DNA of 64,000 nt from Kribbella flavida DSM 17836 (GTDB lineage Bacteria; Actinomycetota; Actinomycetes; Propionibacteriales; Kribbellaceae), in assembly GCF_000024345.1 (NCBI RefSeq), contig NC_013729.1, positions 3,782,001 through 3,846,000 of the forward strand, given 5' to 3'. Every line of letters starts with the position of its first letter. The stretch's first letter is position 1. The notes under the pieces are model-generated. The model was not told where the DNA came from, did not search any database, and was given only the letters and a program-made list of their open reading frames with translations. The position numbers were made by a program, and so were the translations under genes. Shown piece by piece: positions 23,182-30,070 of this stretch.

Positions 23182-23371
23182 GCCGTTGCTGCCGGGGGAG
23201 TAGATGAGACCTCTTTGACGCAGCGCCCAGCAAATGACCGAGCGGACCAGCTCGCGCTGTCCGCGAGCGTGCCCGGACGGGTTGTCCTTGCGAAAACCAT
23301 TGGTGCCCGGCTCCCTGCGCTGATGGACTGACGTCCCATCGTGACTCTGCCGCGTAACGGAGGTAGCGGTT

Positions 23372-24127
23372 GTGACGGACTATGACGTGCTTGCCGAGGT
23401 GTACGAATGGCTCATCGCAGAGGCAAAGTTGCCTCCAGCCGAGTTCGCCGCGTCGTTCGATGACGTCCTCAGTCTCCTGCCGTCGAACGCTCACGTGCTC
23501 GACTGTTCGTGCGGAACCGGACAGTTGGCGGTTGGCCTCGCCGGTCGTGGCCTGCAGGTTGTCGCAACTGACGCCAGCGAAGCGATGGTTCGCCGGACTG
23601 CAGAGTTGTCTGCGGAGTTCGGGGCATCCGTCCGGGCTGTGCGGGCGAACTGGGAAGAGTTGCCCGACCATTTCGAGGACGACACGTTCGACATGGTGTT
23701 CTGTGTCGGCAATTCGCTTCACCATGCCATGGGCGCGACCGGCAGGGGTGCTGCTCTGGAGTCGATGTCACGCCTTCTGAGCCCTGGCGGGCGCTTGGTA
23801 CTCACCTCCCGCACCTGGGAACTCGTGAGGGCCAGAGGTTCCCGGCTCGACATCAGTGACCGACTCGTCCGCCGGAACGGTCGCGATGCCGTCGTGGTCT
23901 ACCGCTGGGAGATTGCGCCGCAGTGGGAGGAGGAGCACCACATCGAGATTGCGATCGCGCAAGTTGATGCGACCGGGTCGGTTCTTGTCCGCTCGGAACT
24001 GCTGTCCTGCTGGCCCTACCGGTACGAGGAACTCGAAGTCGAGCTGCACCGGGTCGGACTCCGGACTGAAGTGAGCACGTTCGATCTGGAGGCCGAGAAC
24101 TACATGGTGGTCGCGAGCAAGGTATAA
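23372..24127 (+). CDS. SAM-dependent methyltransferase next to dif
   Basis: A 251-residue class I methyltransferase. It has HVLDCSCGTGQLAVGL as motif I, VVATDASEAMV, and DTFDMVFCVGNSLHHAMG. The GTG at 23372 has GGAGG 9 nt upstream. Codons ending in T or A (ttg, gtt, agt, gaa) are noticeably more frequent than in neighbouring genes, hinting at acquisition from another genome. It ends 17 nt before a dif-like site. The substrate is unknown; the protein resembles glycine/sarcosine- or small-molecule methyltransferases. Confidence 0.85.
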   Translation: MTDYDVLAEVYEWLIAEAKLPPAEFAASFDDVLSLLPSNAHVLDCSCGTGQLAVGLAGRGLQVVATDASEAMVRRTAELSAEFGASVRAVRANWEELPDHFEDDTFDMVFCVGNSLHHAMGATGRGAALESMSRLLSPGGRLVLTSRTWELVRARGSRLDISDRLVRRNGRDAVVVYRWEIAPQWEEEHHIEIAIAQVDATGSVLVRSELLSCWPYRYEELEVELHRVGLRTEVSTFDLEAENYMVVASKV

Positions 24128-24144
24128 CCACTCGGACCACCAGT

Positions 24145-24172
24145 AGTTGACATAATGTCCATTATCGGCGCT
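24145..24172 (-). other. dif: dif-like chromosome dimer resolution site
   Basis: Read on the minus strand this 28-bp site has a XerC-type arm AGCGCCGATAA, a 6-bp centre TGGACA, and a XerD-type arm TTATGTCAACT. By my alignment it matches E. coli dif at 20 of 28 positions, including the inner dyad ATAAT/ATTAT and the right arm TTATGT-AA-T. The GATAAT, centre, ATTATGT layout is also what I recall of actinobacterial dif sites. Such sites mark the replication terminus of circular chromosomes and are recombined by XerC and XerD. Confidence 0.75.
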
Positions 24173-24187
24173 CTATTGGAGGCGGCT

Positions 24188-24691
24188 TCAGCGTGCTCCC
24201 GGCGCTTGGTTCCAGCTGGGTGTGAAGTCGGCGCTCTGCACGTACTGCATCGCCGCGACGTACTTCGGGTCGGTCATCCGCTCGGCCATCTCGGCCTCGG
24301 TCAGCTCGGCGACCCGGGACTGGATCCAGTACAGATTGCCGAACGGGTCGCGGACCCGGCCGACCTGGTCGCCCCAGAACAGCTCGGTCACCTCGGTCAC
24401 CGACGTCCCGCCGGCGGCGACCGCCTGCCGGTGGGTCGCCGCCGCGTCCTCGACGTACAGCCGCAGGAACGCCGGCGTCACCGGCCAGTCCGGCCGGGAG
24501 TCGAACATCATCACCATCGCGTTGCCGATCCGCATCTCCGCGTGCCCGATCACGCCCTGGTCGTCGACCACCCGGCCGCAGTCCTCGGCGTCGAACGCCC
24601 TGGTCAGGTAGTCCATCAACGCGTTCGTGTCGTGCGAGATCATCCAGGGCGTGATGGTGGTGTAGCCGGCCGGGATCGAGTCGAAGCTCAT
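24188..24691 (-). CDS. VOC-family (PhnB-like glyoxalase-fold) protein
   Basis: The 167-residue protein is a single VOC module of the PhnB/YcgI type. It starts with ITPWMISHDTNALMDYLTRAF and ends with GRVRDPFGNLYWIQSR, the expected final strand. A C-terminal extension contains MTDPKYVAAMQYVQ. The start ATG follows AAAGG about 8 nt upstream on the coding strand. It lies just inside the dif-like site, between the two dif-like sequences. Confidence 0.83.
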   Translation of the reverse strand: MSFDSIPAGYTTITPWMISHDTNALMDYLTRAFDAEDCGRVVDDQGVIGHAEMRIGNAMVMMFDSRPDWPVTPAFLRLYVEDAAATHRQAVAAGGTSVTEVTELFWGDQVGRVRDPFGNLYWIQSRVAELTEAEMAERMTDPKYVAAMQYVQSADFTPSWNQAPGAR

Positions 24692-25009: not shown

Positions 25010-25058
25010 TCCAGCCGGTCCCCCGGCCGGGGTGAGAACCCCTCTCGGCGGAGATGCT

Positions 25059-25086
25059 GTCATGCATAATCACCATTATGCAGCAC
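25059..25086 (+). other. Second dif-like dyad upstream of tyrosine recombinase
   Basis: GCATAA (25064-25069), centre TCACCA, and TTATGC (25076-25081) form a perfect 6-bp inverted repeat with the same 6-bp spacing as dif. The outer arm positions diverge from dif. The site is 94 bp upstream of a tyrosine recombinase start, so it may be that enzyme's own target. A palindrome CCCCGGCCGGGG lies at 25021-25032. Nothing else is recognisable between 25090 and 25180. Confidence 0.45.
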
Positions 25087-25180: not shown

Positions 25181-26137
25181 ATGAGAGTGCTCGACGCGCA
25201 GGCCGCGTTCTTCGCCGCCCGGCGGCCGCGGAAGGACTCCCCGCACACCACCGCCGCCTACCGCCGCGACCTCGCCGGCATCACCGCGCTGCTGACCGAC
25301 GACCCCGACAGCCTCCAGGTCGAGGACCTGACCGCGCCGGCGCTGCGCGCGGCGTTCGGTGCGTTCGCGGACGGCCACGCGAAGAGTTCGGTGCTGCGGG
25401 CCTGGTCGACGTGGAACCAGTTCCTCACCTTCTGCGTGTCCGACGGTCTGCTCGCCGGCAACCCGATGGGCGCGGTGGCACGGCCGAAGACCCCTCCCCT
25501 GTCCCCCAAGCCGCTGCGTGGTGAGGACACCCCGGAGCGCCTGTTGCAGGCCGCCGCCGACGGCGTACGCCGGGGGCGCGATCCGTGGCCGGAGCGGGAC
25601 GTGCTGGTGATTGCGCTCGGGCTGGTCGCCGGGCTGCGCTCGGCCGAGATGCGCATGCTGACGGCCGACTCACTCGCCGGGCGTCCCGGTGAGATGCGCC
25701 TGCACGTGCACGGCAAAGGCAGCCGGGACCGGTCGATCCCGGTCGAGCCGATCATGGAGCGGATCATCGCGGCGTACCTCGACTCGTGCGCCCGGCGCTT
25801 TCCGCGCAAGCGGTTCGGCCGCAGTGCGAAGCTGCTGCTGGACCGCGAGGGCAGCCCGATCGGCCGCGGCGGCCTGGAGTACCTGGTGAAGTCCTGCTAT
25901 CGGTGGGCCGGCCTGCACGACCGCGTCCCGGTCGGTGCGAACTTGCACGCCCTGCGGCACACCTTCGCGACCCGGCTGGCCGAGGACGGCGCCACCGCGT
26001 CGGAGATCATGGCTCTACTCGGCCACGCCAGCCTGGCCACCAGCCAGAACTACATCGAAGCCACCGGCCGCGAGCAGCGCGCCGCTACCGCCAGCAACCG
26101 CACGTACCGGACCCTCGACAAGGTGCTCGACGAGTAG
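25181..26137 (+). CDS. Tyrosine recombinase/integrase (Xer-like)
   Basis: The 318-residue protein has the size and two-domain build of XerC/XerD. An N-terminal SAM-like core-binding domain (about residues 5-100) precedes the catalytic domain. All catalytic residues are present: Arg153 in AGLRSAEM, Lys179 in HGKGSRDR, the HALRH motif with His256 and Arg259, His282 in LLGHAS, and the nucleophile Tyr291 in SQNYIEAT. AGGAA lies about 10 nt before the ATG. It is close to two dif-like sites. It could be a housekeeping Xer protein or the recombinase of a small integrative element; the usual actinobacterial xerC and xerD contexts are not present. Confidence 0.88.
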   Translation: MRVLDAQAAFFAARRPRKDSPHTTAAYRRDLAGITALLTDDPDSLQVEDLTAPALRAAFGAFADGHAKSSVLRAWSTWNQFLTFCVSDGLLAGNPMGAVARPKTPPLSPKPLRGEDTPERLLQAAADGVRRGRDPWPERDVLVIALGLVAGLRSAEMRMLTADSLAGRPGEMRLHVHGKGSRDRSIPVEPIMERIIAAYLDSCARRFPRKRFGRSAKLLLDREGSPIGRGGLEYLVKSCYRWAGLHDRVPVGANLHALRHTFATRLAEDGATASEIMALLGHASLATSQNYIEATGREQRAATASNRTYRTLDKVLDE

Positions 26138-26189
26138 CCTGGCCGCAGCGCGGTTGCCAACGACAGGCGCCCTGAGGAAGGTGCGGCGA

Positions 26190-26898
26190 GTGACGAAACG
26201 TTTCGTGCTCAAGCTGTCGGGTCAGGCGATCGCCGGCGGCGACACCTTCGGCTTCGACAGCGACCGGGTGACCCATCTGGCCACCGAGGTGCTGGCCGCC
26301 CGGGCCGCCGGGGCGGAGATCGCGGTGGTGATCGGTGGCGGCAACGTGTTCCGTGGCAACCGGTCCGAGGAGTGGGGCATCGACCGGGTCGAGGCGGACA
26401 ACATCGGCATGCTCGGCACGGTGATCAACGCGGTGCTGCTGCGGAGCCGGTTGACGACGCTCGGCGAGTACGACGTCCGGCTGATGACGGCGATCCCGAT
26501 CAACAACCTGGCCGAGCCGTACATCCGGCTGCGGGCGCTGCGGCACCTGGCGAAGGGCTCGATCGTGGTGCTGGCCTGCGGCAACGGTCAGCCGTTCACC
26601 ACCACGGACTACCCGGCCGTGCAGCGGGCGATCGAGCTCGGCGCGCACGGATTGCTGGTCGCGAAGAACGGCGCCGACGGCATCTACGACGCCGACCCGA
26701 ACAAGGTGCCGACGGCGCGACCCTTCGAGCGGCTGGGCTACCAGGAGGCGATCGACCGGCAGCTGCGGGTGATGGACCAGTCGGCGTTCGTCCTGGCCCG
26801 CGACCACCGGCTCCCGCTGCACGTTTTCGACATCGACCCCCCCCGGTGCGGCGGCCGCGATCTGCCGCAGTACGCCGGTCGGAACGGTGGTCAGCTGA
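26190..26898 (+). CDS. UMP kinase-like protein (paralogue), frameshift near the 3' end
   Basis: The sequence encodes an amino-acid-kinase-fold protein close to bacterial UMP kinase: FVLKLSGQAI, IGGGNVFRG, NIGMLGTVINAV and AKNGADGIYDADP. It would phosphorylate UMP to UDP. The GTG at 26190 has GAGGAAGG 8 nt upstream. As given, a run of eight C residues (26837-26844) shifts the frame; with seven, the protein continues DIDPPGAAAAICRSTPVGTVV and stops at 26896-26898 after 235 residues, the normal length. The canonical pyrH lies between tsf and frr, so this isolated, divergent copy is probably a paralogue. Confidence 0.75.
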
Positions 26899-27713
26899 GT
26901 CGCTGCAGGCTGCGCGCGATCGTGTCGAGGTGCGGCTGGATCCAGTCCCCACCCGCCTCGTACTCGATCCGGACCGTCACCGCCGCCCAGACCGCCTGGT
27001 AGAGGCCGAACGTGCGATCCAACGCGTCCGACGGCGTCAGTCCGTACCCGTCCAGTACGGCGTTCGTCGCGTCGGCCCCCCGCGAGCGAGAACCGTCCGA
27101 GGTCGAACAACGGATCCCCGTACAGGGCGTCACCCCAGTCGATGATCGCGGTCAGCTCGCCGTCGAGCGCGTAGACGTGCCGCGGATGCAGGTCGCCGTG
27201 CAGCAACGCCGGCCTGGCGGGTTCGAGTTCGTCGCTCGCCTGCTCGACCAGCGCGCCGAGCCGTCGTCGATGCTCGTCGGGCAACACACCGGCAGCACTG
27301 ATGCCGACCAGCGACCGCACCGCATCCAGCAGGACCTCCGCCCAGGTCGAACGCAGCGGCCCGCCGAGGAGGCCGTACCCATCCGCCGGCCCCGCGTGCA
27401 GCTTCACAAGCTGACGACCAAGCTCCGGCAGCACCTGGGAAGCGTCGGTCGCACTCACCGGCCGCCCTTCCACCTCACGCTGGACGAGGTAGCCGGGGCC
27501 GTCGGCAACGATGTCGGGAGCCGGTACGCCGGCCGCTCGCGCCAGTCGGCAGGCGCGGACCTCGGCGTCGGTCGCGGCGCCGCTCTTCACGTGGTACGTG
27601 TCCCCCGCCCTCGTGCGGACGCGGAACGTCTCGTTGCCGATGAAACCCTGCACGGACTCGACCGTCACGAACGGCCCGAGCCGTCCGGCTGCTGCTGTCA
27701 CGACGTCGATCAC
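26891..27713 (-). pseudogene. Aminoglycoside phosphotransferase-family kinase, frameshifted
   Basis: The frame starting at 27713 encodes an APH/choline kinase-fold phosphotransferase with LLHGDLHPRHVYA (catalytic loop) and IIDWGDALYGDP (metal-binding Asp). A run of six C residues on the plus strand (27076-27081) then shifts the frame. With five, the protein continues SLAGADATNAVLDGYG and ends at 26891 with RSLQRLS, a normal family ending and length of about 273 residues. Either the gene is broken or the sequence carries a homopolymer error. The substrate is unknown. It converges on the UMP kinase-like gene with an 8-nt overlap. Confidence 0.75.
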
Positions 27714-27815
27714 CGACCCGACCCTAGCCGGTGGAGCGTGCAGACCCGTCCGTCAAGCGCGAACCCGATGCTGCGAGGCCCGGCACAGCAGCACGCTGCG
27801 CCGTTCCCGGCACCG

Positions 27816-27853
27816 AAAACCGATTGCCGCACTGCGGCCGGGTGCGGTGTACT
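27816..27853 (+). promoter_or_regulatory. WhiB7-like promoter of ribosomal protection gene
   Basis: An AAAA run (27816-27819) lies 4 bp upstream of a -35-like TTGCCG (27824-27829), followed after 18 bp by a -10-like TGTACT (27848-27853). A short AT-rich element just upstream of the -35 is the known mark of WhiB7-dependent promoters, which control intrinsic antibiotic resistance genes in actinobacteria. The -10 match is only moderate. Confidence 0.45.
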
Positions 27854-27891
27854 CGGAAGCGTCCCGTAGGTACCAGTGAAGGAGCGCCGGC

Positions 27892-28002
27892 ATGCGACCT
27901 GGCTTCGTGTCCACCCCGTTCTGCACTGACACCTGTTCGAGGGACATGAAGCTGCGTGAAAGCACTGAACCTGGGAATCCTGGCGCATGTCGACGCCGGT
28001 AA
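27892..28002 (+). CDS. Putative leader peptide of ribosomal protection gene
   Basis: A 36-codon frame begins ATG at 27892 with GGAG 8 nt upstream, a better ribosome site than that of the main gene. It reads MRPGFVSTPFCTDTCSRDMK and overlaps the main gene start (27956) by 47 nt in another frame. Leader frames upstream of ribosome-targeting resistance genes commonly act as attenuators: stalled ribosomes change mRNA folding and raise expression. This role is an inference; the peptide itself is unlikely to have another function. Confidence 0.5.
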   Translation: MRPGFVSTPFCTDTCSRDMKLRESTEPGNPGACRRR

Positions 28003-29962
28003 GACGAGCCTGACCGAGCGGCTGCTGTACGCCGCCGGGGTCATCGACGAAGTCGGCAGCGTCGACGACGGCAGCACCCAGACCGACTCGCTCGCGCTGG
28101 AACGGCAGCGCGGCATCACGATCAAGTCCGCCGTCGTCTCGTTCGCGATCGGCGACGTCACCGTCAACCTGATCGACACCCCCGGCCACCCGGACTTCAT
28201 CGCCGAGGTGGAGCGGGCGCTCGGCGTGCTCGACGGCGCCGTGCTGGTGGTGTCGGCGGTGGAGGGCGTGCAGGCACAGACCCGCGTCCTGCTGCGCACG
28301 CTGCAACGCCTGCGCATCCCGACGCTGATCTTCGTCAACAAGATCGACCGTCGCGGCGCCCGGCACGAGGCCCTGCTGCGGGATCTCGCGAGCAGGCTGT
28401 CCACGGGCGTCGTCGCGATGGGCCGCACCGACGGCCTCGGCACGCGCGGCGCGAGCTTCACGCCGTACGGCCCGGGTGATCCGGGGTTCGCGATCAGCCT
28501 GGTCGAGCTGCTCGCCGAGCACGACGACCAGTTGCTGGAAACCTATGTGGAGAACGAGAAAGCGCTCTCCTACGATGCTCTGCGCGCCGGCCTGGCCGAG
28601 CAGACCCGCCGGGCGCTCGTGCACCCGGTGTACTTCGGATCGGCGATCACCGGAGCCGGCACCGAGCAACTGATCGCCGGGATCCGCGAGCTGCTGCCGG
28701 CGCCCGAAGGCGATCGGGAGGCACCGGTGGCGGGATCGGTGTTCAAGGTGGAGCGCGGTCCGGCCGGTGAGAAGGTCGCGTACGTCCGGATGTTCGCCGG
28801 CGAGCTGCGAACCCGGGACACGGTGCGGTTCCGCGGCGACCGGGGCGCGAAGGTGACCGCGATCAGCGTGTTCGGCGACGGCGCGACGGCGACCGCCCGG
28901 ACCGTCACCGCCGGCCAGATCGGCAAGCTCTGGGGTCTCGGCGACATCCGGATCGGCGACGCGATCACCGACGGCAGCGGCGCCGGCCCGGTCCGTGAGA
29001 TCGCTCCGGAGAGCGCGTTCTTCGCTCCGCCGACGTTGGAGACCGTGGTGCTGCCGGTGCGTGCGTCGGACCGTGGCAACCTTCGGGCCGCGCTGGCCCA
29101 GCTCGCCGAGCAGGACCCGTTGATCAACCTGCGGCAGGACGACCTGCGCCAGGAGACCTTCGTCTCGCTCTACGGCGAGGTGCAGAAGGAGGTCATCCAG
29201 ACGACGCTGGCCACGGAGTACGGGCTGGACGTGACGTTCCGGGAGACCACCACGATCCACATCGAGCGGCTGGACGGGATCGGTGCGGCGGTCGAGTTCA
29301 ACAAGGTCGACCCGAACCCGTTCCTCGCCACGATCGGTCTCCGGGTCGAACCGGCACCGGCCGGTGCCGGGGTGACGTTCGAGCTGGAGGTCGAGCTCGG
29401 CTCGATGCCGTACGCGTTCATCAAGGCGGTCGAGGAAACCGTGCACGAGACGCTGCAGCAGGGACTGCACGGTTGGCAGATTCCGGACTGCCGGGTGGTG
29501 ATGACGCACTCGGGCTACTCGGCGCGGCAGAGTCACGCGCACGCGGTGTTCGACAAGAGCATGTCGAGCACCGCGGGCGACTTCCGGTTGCTGACGCCGC
29601 TTGTGCTGACGGCGGCTCTACGCCGGGCCGGGACCACGGTGCACGAGCCGCTGCACGCCTTCCAGCTGGAGATTCCGACCGACACGGTGCGCGCTGTGCT
29701 GGCGGCGCTCGCGCGGCTGCGAGCGATCCCCCGAGTACCCGCGCTCGACGCAGACGTGTCGGTGCTGGAGGGCGAGATCCCTGCGGCAGCCGTCTACCAG
29801 CTGGAGCAACAGCTGCCGGCGCTGACTCGCGGCGAAGGGGTGCTGGAGTCGGCGTTCGAGCGGTACCAGCCGGTGACCGGTGCGATCCCGGTCCGGGAGC
29901 GCACCGACCACGACCCGCTCAACCGCCGCGAGTACCTGCTGCACGTGCTGCGCCGGGTGTGA
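27956..29962 (+). CDS. Tetracycline resistance ribosomal protection protein, OtrA/TetM-like
   Basis: The 668-residue protein is an EF-G-like translational GTPase of the TetM/OtrA class. The P-loop is AHVDAGKTSL, switch I region ERQRGITI, G3 motif DTPGHPDF and G4 motif NKID. Domain III-V follow, and the C-terminal domain carries HSGYSARQSHAH near the tip that contacts the ribosomal A site. These proteins dislodge tetracycline from the 30S subunit. The start GTG at 27956 overlaps a 36-codon upstream frame. A strong hairpin terminator follows directly. It is most likely intrinsic resistance, since codon use matches the genome. Confidence 0.9.
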   Translation: MKALNLGILAHVDAGKTSLTERLLYAAGVIDEVGSVDDGSTQTDSLALERQRGITIKSAVVSFAIGDVTVNLIDTPGHPDFIAEVERALGVLDGAVLVVSAVEGVQAQTRVLLRTLQRLRIPTLIFVNKIDRRGARHEALLRDLASRLSTGVVAMGRTDGLGTRGASFTPYGPGDPGFAISLVELLAEHDDQLLETYVENEKALSYDALRAGLAEQTRRALVHPVYFGSAITGAGTEQLIAGIRELLPAPEGDREAPVAGSVFKVERGPAGEKVAYVRMFAGELRTRDTVRFRGDRGAKVTAISVFGDGATATARTVTAGQIGKLWGLGDIRIGDAITDGSGAGPVREIAPESAFFAPPTLETVVLPVRASDRGNLRAALAQLAEQDPLINLRQDDLRQETFVSLYGEVQKEVIQTTLATEYGLDVTFRETTTIHIERLDGIGAAVEFNKVDPNPFLATIGLRVEPAPAGAGVTFELEVELGSMPYAFIKAVEETVHETLQQGLHGWQIPDCRVVMTHSGYSARQSHAHAVFDKSMSSTAGDFRLLTPLVLTAALRRAGTTVHEPLHAFQLEIPTDTVRAVLAALARLRAIPRVPALDADVSVLEGEIPAAAVYQLEQQLPALTRGEGVLESAFERYQPVTGAIPVRERTDHDPLNRREYLLHVLRRV

Positions 29963-29984
29963 CCGGGCGAGGACGCTCGCCCGG
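29963..29984. terminator. Hairpin terminator after ribosomal protection gene
   Basis: CCGGGCGAG (29963-29971) and CTCGCCCGG (29976-29984) form a perfect 9-bp stem with a 4-nt loop, starting at the base after the stop codon. Confidence 0.8.
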
Positions 29985-30070
29985 CCGGTCGGCCGGCGTC
30001 CAACTCGCGCGCCAGCCCGGCGGTCAGCGGGCACCGAGAATGCATGGCGGCGACGCGCGGCGGGGCACTG

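Follow-up and report, generated by a model that had tools for sequence, protein, structure and literature searches.

Chromosome dimer resolution is normally described in terms of one Xer system per chromosome. Dimers are resolved at the dif site by XerCD together with FtsK (PMC5357621). dif is where FtsK and the Xer recombinases act, and it lies near the place where the replication forks meet, not necessarily at the same spot (PMC3025954). Actinobacterial dif sites have been predicted for Frankia alni, Actinoplanes and Kutzneria (PMC3025954, PMC3364876, PMC4210621), and the F. alni dif (CACGCCGATAATGCACATTATGTCAAGT) was the actinobacterial seed used by Kono et al. 2011 (PMC3025954).

Single-recombinase systems, namely XerS/difSL and XerH/difH (PMC5357621) and XerL/dif of the Legionellales (PMC9765430), replace XerCD/dif by one recombinase that acts on a dif-like terminus site of its own. 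IMEX, such as CTXphi, VGJphi, GGI and LME-1 (PMC5357621, PMC9765430), integrate at dif; they contain a sequence mimicking dif and are usually bounded by two dif-like copies. Xer-like recombinases are also found on large actinobacterial plasmids of Mycobacterium, Rhodococcus and Dietzia.

The window analyzed here, a stretch of 64,000 nucleotides of a Kribbella chromosome, contains a dif site, a gene for a third Xer-type recombinase (X3) and a further dif-like site (site B). The likeliest reading of the sequences is that X3 and site B constitute a second, single-recombinase Xer system at the terminus, beside XerCD/dif.

Chromosomal dif site

The initial annotation had proposed a chromosomal dif on the minus strand at positions 24145-24172 of the window, where the plus strand reads AGTTGACATAATGTCCATTATCGGCGCT. 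The claimed 11-6-11 layout is exact: on the minus strand, the XerC arm AGCGCCGATAA and the XerD arm TTATGTCAACT flank the centre TGGACA. The site is intergenic, as had been stated: a methyltransferase gene stops at 24127, a glyoxalase-family gene convergent with it occupies 24188-24691 on the minus strand, and the gap that separates the two measures 60 bp. The glyoxalase-family gene, which stands between dif and site B, has no same-cluster homologue at dif in the other congeneric genomes and is probably a local insertion.

In comparison with E. coli dif, the reported agreement at 20 of 28 positions was reproduced, and all inner ATAA/TTAT arm bases agree; the statement that all central dyad bases agree was somewhat generous, since only four of the central six match. 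The F. alni dif, taken as printed in PMC3025954, agrees at 24 of 28 positions. When an actinobacterial-type dif pattern was searched with up to three mismatches, one match was obtained in the window and none in 100 shuffles.

The genome, which named relatives place in or near Kribbella, is a single contig of 7,579,488 bp, in which the 28-mer occupies positions 3,806,145-3,806,172. If this contig is a circle opened at oriC, the site lies opposite oriC, 50.2% of the way round from the only dnaA gene (position 1,128). A scan of the 7.58-Mb genome with up to three mismatches returned the 28-mer once and a reversed-pattern control not at all; within the same limit, no second match and no better dif was found elsewhere. 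GC skew was mostly positive before dif and mostly negative after it in the sampled stretches, and its cumulative maximum within 400 kb fell about 31 kb from dif, consistent with the expected skew switch nearby.

Exactly one copy of dif was present in each of the 38 congeneric genomes, although the bases that flank it are largely unalignable among them. In the class as a whole, a dif match was obtained in 243 of 296 genomes, and in none of the sampled genomes of one large genus (f18/g22). Among the genus loci L182-L219, dif sequences ending in ACAT or CCAT were observed, a possible trace of Xer-mediated integration at dif.

Genes for XerC and XerD are located elsewhere in the same genome, at 5,117,782 and 5,520,405. 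XerD scores above its NCBIfam cut-off, and XerC reaches 299 bits, below its cut-off of 335.

With a single copy in mid-chromosome, conservation among relatives and the convergence of a KOPS-like motif described below, the identity of the 28-mer as chromosomal dif is virtually certain. It is settled short of experiment and, taken alone, adds one more ordinary example of a familiar type of site. All checks suggested in the initial annotation turned out favourably. The designation as a dif site thus holds, while the accompanying term "replication terminus" was loose wording (PMC3025954).

KOPS-like motif around dif

Skew and KOPS-like motifs were computed from 0.8 Mb of genome stretches, the skew being sampled. 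All octamers in the 0.8 Mb were ranked by their orientation bias about dif. The top oriented octamer was CGGGGGAG, with 91 copies pointing toward dif and 7 pointing away. For the heptamer CGGGGGA, 101 of 108 copies within 200 kb point toward dif. The survey of oriented CGGGGGA(G) in the genome itself spanned positions 3,606,146-4,006,145.

When the switch point for CGGGGGA was left floating, the best interval extended from -952 to +874 bp (about 1.8 kb), with dif inside. The motif had been chosen with dif as the divide, which did not predetermine how sharply its orientation switches. The innermost copies, both pointing to dif, are situated at 23193-23199 on the plus strand (left arm, offset -952) and at 25019-25025 on the minus strand (right arm, offset +874), the second one between dif and site B. 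The CGGGGGA motif would be the one read by FtsK. The dif site provides a firm terminus landmark for the genus and, in addition, a KOPS-like motif.

A third Xer-type recombinase beside dif

Positions 25181-26137 of the plus strand encode X3, a tyrosine recombinase of the Xer type with a Pfam Phage_integrase domain and a SAM-like N-terminal domain. Its identity to XerD and XerC of the same genome is 27-29%, and the catalytic residues common to XerC and XerD are kept (R154, K180, H257, R260, H283 and Y292, P0001 numbering). Assignment of X3 to the NCBIfam XerC or XerD equivalog was rejected, since it scored 146 bits for XerC (cut-off 335) and 117 bits for XerD (cut-off 330). In the tree, X3 groups with its relatives in a single clade that is separate from both XerC and XerD (100/100 in a more careful tree).

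Within the genus, X3 was carried by 15 of 38 genomes and absent in 23. All 15 carriers have it on the same strand as dif, at a distance of 0.4-2.6 kb, and its dN/dS of about 0.1-0.16 indicates purifying selection. Because X3 is missing from those 23 Kribbella genomes, it is dispensable and presumably redundant with XerCD/dif.

Among the best 80 of 221 X3 relatives in named genomes, belonging to Kribbella, Amycolatopsis, Kutzneria, Lentzea, Saccharothrix and other genera, dif lies upstream on the same strand in 78. The Kribbella copies form one clade nested in Pseudonocardiaceae, a tree topology which suggests that X3 was gained horizontally by Kribbella. A phage origin was rejected, as no match to X3 was obtained in 50,697 phage records.

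In the window, X3 is followed at 26172-30000 by two genes, one for an additional, pyrH-like UMP kinase and one for a ribosomal-protection protein of the Otr(A)-like type. According to clustering, these genes follow X3 in most of the X3-carrying Kribbella genomes and lie beside dif in no genome lacking X3. Their linkage to X3 was found in Kribbella only and not in other genera, and the idea that they form one unit with X3 was discarded.

Relatives of X3 with 36-41% identity were found on 59 plasmids, one per record. On large plasmids of Mycobacterium, Mycolicibacterium and Rhodococcus (loci L270, L273, L274 and L276), a palindrome of the site B form is situated upstream of the single X3 relative. 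Such a palindrome was present upstream in four of the eight plasmid relatives examined, and the pair of recombinase and palindrome is a candidate multimer-resolution system.

Site B, a dif-like site accompanying X3

Site B was spotted by reading aligned leaders of X3. It is located at 25059-25086 on the plus strand and reads GTCATGCATAA-TCACCA-TTATGCAGCAC, again in an 11-6-11 arrangement. The site has the dif layout and the inner ATAA/TTAT bases of dif; its outer arms differ and are close to symmetric.

All 15 X3-carrying genomes of the genus have site B, at a single place per genome, whereas the 23 genomes without X3 all lack it (Fisher p 6e-11, uncorrected for relatedness). In the class survey it was detected in 27 of 296 genomes, nearly the same set as the X3 carriers. 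The mismatches between the two sets fall mostly into one family (f6), where X3 relatives may be plasmid-borne. In another genome (G067), dif and site B are placed on a 4.9-kb contig without X3, and five X3-carrying genomes have site B variants with more than one mismatch, which were detected by local inspection. Two chromosomes of family f6 (G218:C2 and G296:C32, loci L284 and L285) have a site-B-like palindrome at 936 and 779 bp from dif, respectively, and no close X3 in the vicinity; the first of these genomes encodes an X3 relative on a different contig, at a distance of about 1.8 kb from a dif-like sequence.

A comparison of 60 distinct site B sequences revealed that the inner arm bases, TG(C/G)ATAA and TTAT(C/G)CA, show almost no variation. 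Each of the six central positions varies, with 37 different centres, and the variable C/G at inner base 7 matches between the two arms in 53 of the 60. Nearly invariant inner arms around a free centre are what would be anticipated for a target of a tyrosine recombinase in which crossover spans 6 bp. Palindromy alone was not accepted as proof, since 46 places in the window, site B included, reach a symmetry of at least 9/11. A search near X3 for a degenerate second dif, using the dif pattern with up to six mismatches, yielded none that was convincing. Judged from sequence, site B is probably the recombination site of X3.

Spacing between site B and dif

Across 95 loci, the median distance from dif to site B was 459 bp, with a 10-90% range of 279-577 bp; a few loci depart from this spacing (up to 4.2 kb). 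At 17 loci of other families the distance was 299-952 bp, and at these same loci X3 lies anywhere from 47 bp to 6.9 kb from site B, with site B downstream of X3 in two. Site B tracks dif, not the X3 gene or its promoter. The KOPS-like sequence TCCCCC occurred within 150 bp of site B, on the side of dif, at 50 of 78 loci, compared with 7.2 expected.

A palindromic dif candidate in family f16

X3 is present in six genomes of family f16 (G156, G219, G261, G080, G304 and G318; loci L235, L238, L239 and L288-L290). No dif within two mismatches was found in these six genomes, and site B was found in each of them. About 430-700 bp from site B, they carry an almost perfect palindrome that reads ACCAGACAGAA-N6-TTCTGTCTGGT or differs slightly from it. 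Visual comparison of the half-site with the XerD arm ACTTGACATAA gives agreement at 8 of 11 positions. Three of the six genomes contain the palindrome twice.

In the two genomes of this family that were examined for oriented motifs, GGGGGAG was the top heptamer, and the switch interval holds both the palindrome and site B. Each of the six genomes encodes one XerC/XerD-like recombinase, which groups with XerD in the tree; XerC was not found in these drafts by one profile search. This combination of features has the appearance of a natural transition in which XerCD/dif gave way to a dif served by one recombinase.

Discussion

Several explanations other than a pair of Xer systems were weighed. 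The 28-mer includes TTGACA and palindromic stretches, features that a chance palindrome or a transcription-factor operator might also display. Neither would be expected of a sequence that is unique, conserved class-wide and placed in mid-chromosome at the convergence point of a KOPS-like motif, in a genome where the search within three mismatches gave no better dif, and such an origin is extremely improbable. An operator can likewise be proposed for site B, which would then control the expression of X3, through X3 itself or another regulator, and would not be a recombination site. Its position about 70-130 bp upstream of the X3 start in most named loci is in line with that proposal. In other families, however, site B lies up to 6.9 kb from X3, and downstream of it in two genomes, yet remains 0.3-1 kb from dif. 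A spacing to dif that is kept while X3 moves speaks for a site that has to lie where FtsK delivers the DNA, not for an operator of X3, and an 11-6-11 structure with a free central hexamer is the layout of an Xer site. Control of X3 is thus quite an improbable function for site B.

It was also considered whether X3 and site B might be the relic or passenger of a mobile element, IMEX-like or plasmid-derived, which inserted at or near dif and left site B behind as an attachment site that serves no function at the terminus today. The nesting of the Kribbella copies in Pseudonocardiaceae, with the horizontal gain that it implies, the patchy presence of X3 in the genus and the existence of plasmid homologues would all fit such a history. 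Moreover, X3-carrying genomes possess genes that are missing beside dif in the others, for example the pyrH/otr(A)-like block, and the right-arm end of dif is changed (ACAT/CCAT) in 9 of the 15 carriers and in none of the 23 non-carriers (p 3e-5, uncorrected for relatedness). On the other hand, there is one site B and one dif per Kribbella genome and therefore no flanking repeats, and the neighbouring genes differ between genera, so that mainly X3, site B and dif are shared. The distance between dif and site B is maintained across families even where X3 has moved off, X3 is under purifying selection, and it is on none of the 50,697 phage records. Taken together, a relic or passenger of this kind is unlikely. 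The best overall explanation, and a probable one, is that the 28-mer is dif and that X3 and site B form a second Xer system alongside it.

According to this two-system explanation, XerC would bind the AGCGCCGATAA arm of dif and XerD the TTATGTCAACT arm. FtsK would join the sister copies of dif at the division septum, where XerCD recombination would turn the dimer into monomers. X3 alone would bind both arms of the near-symmetric 28-bp site B and would recombine two sister copies of it. With site B only about 0.25-1 kb from dif, delivery by the same FtsK motors may be envisaged. We infer that X3 cuts site B and acts in dimer resolution or in another late step at the terminus; of these roles, chromosome dimer resolution is slightly favoured.

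If site B is held at a set distance from dif, this would mean either redundancy at the terminus, or another late step, for instance in septation in actinobacteria that branch and form spores, or a plasmid system that has been domesticated and is widespread. Broadening the view beyond Kribbella, there is about an even chance that several actinobacterial families possess XerCD/dif and a homodimeric X3/site B system roughly half a kilobase apart, and that a lineage without a recognisable XerC has kept X3/site B while its dif was rebuilt as a palindrome of two XerD-type half-sites.

No description of a dif-linked third Xer recombinase beside an intact XerCD/dif was found in the open-access papers searched (subscription journals being outside the scope of the search), which do contain predictions of actinobacterial dif sites. 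With these predictions in Frankia alni, Actinoplanes and Kutzneria, the 28-mer shares its layout, sequence, single copy opposite oriC and the accompanying XerC and XerD, and it exhibits no material difference from the XerCD/dif of circular chromosomes.

The Xer-like recombinases of large actinobacterial plasmids resemble X3 in sequence, and several have the upstream palindrome. In contrast to X3, they are not located at a chromosomal dif; their function is likewise only inferred. As in IMEX, foreign genes appear beside dif in Kribbella and the right arm of dif has possibly been exchanged. IMEX differ in their two flanking dif-like sites; each X3-carrying genome of the genus has a single dif and a single site B, and the additional site goes with a recombinase of its own.

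The closest resemblance is to XerS/difSL, XerH/difH and XerL/dif. Like these, X3 is a single recombinase, with its catalytic residues intact, that has a dif-like terminus site to itself, and its gene lies near that site, as is the case for XerS and XerH. Those systems stand in place of XerC and XerD, whereas both proteins are encoded in this genome, and X3/site B coexists with a complete set of XerC, XerD and dif. Unlike the recombinases of the XerS, XerH and XerL systems, X3 belongs to a separate clade that exists beside XerC and XerD.
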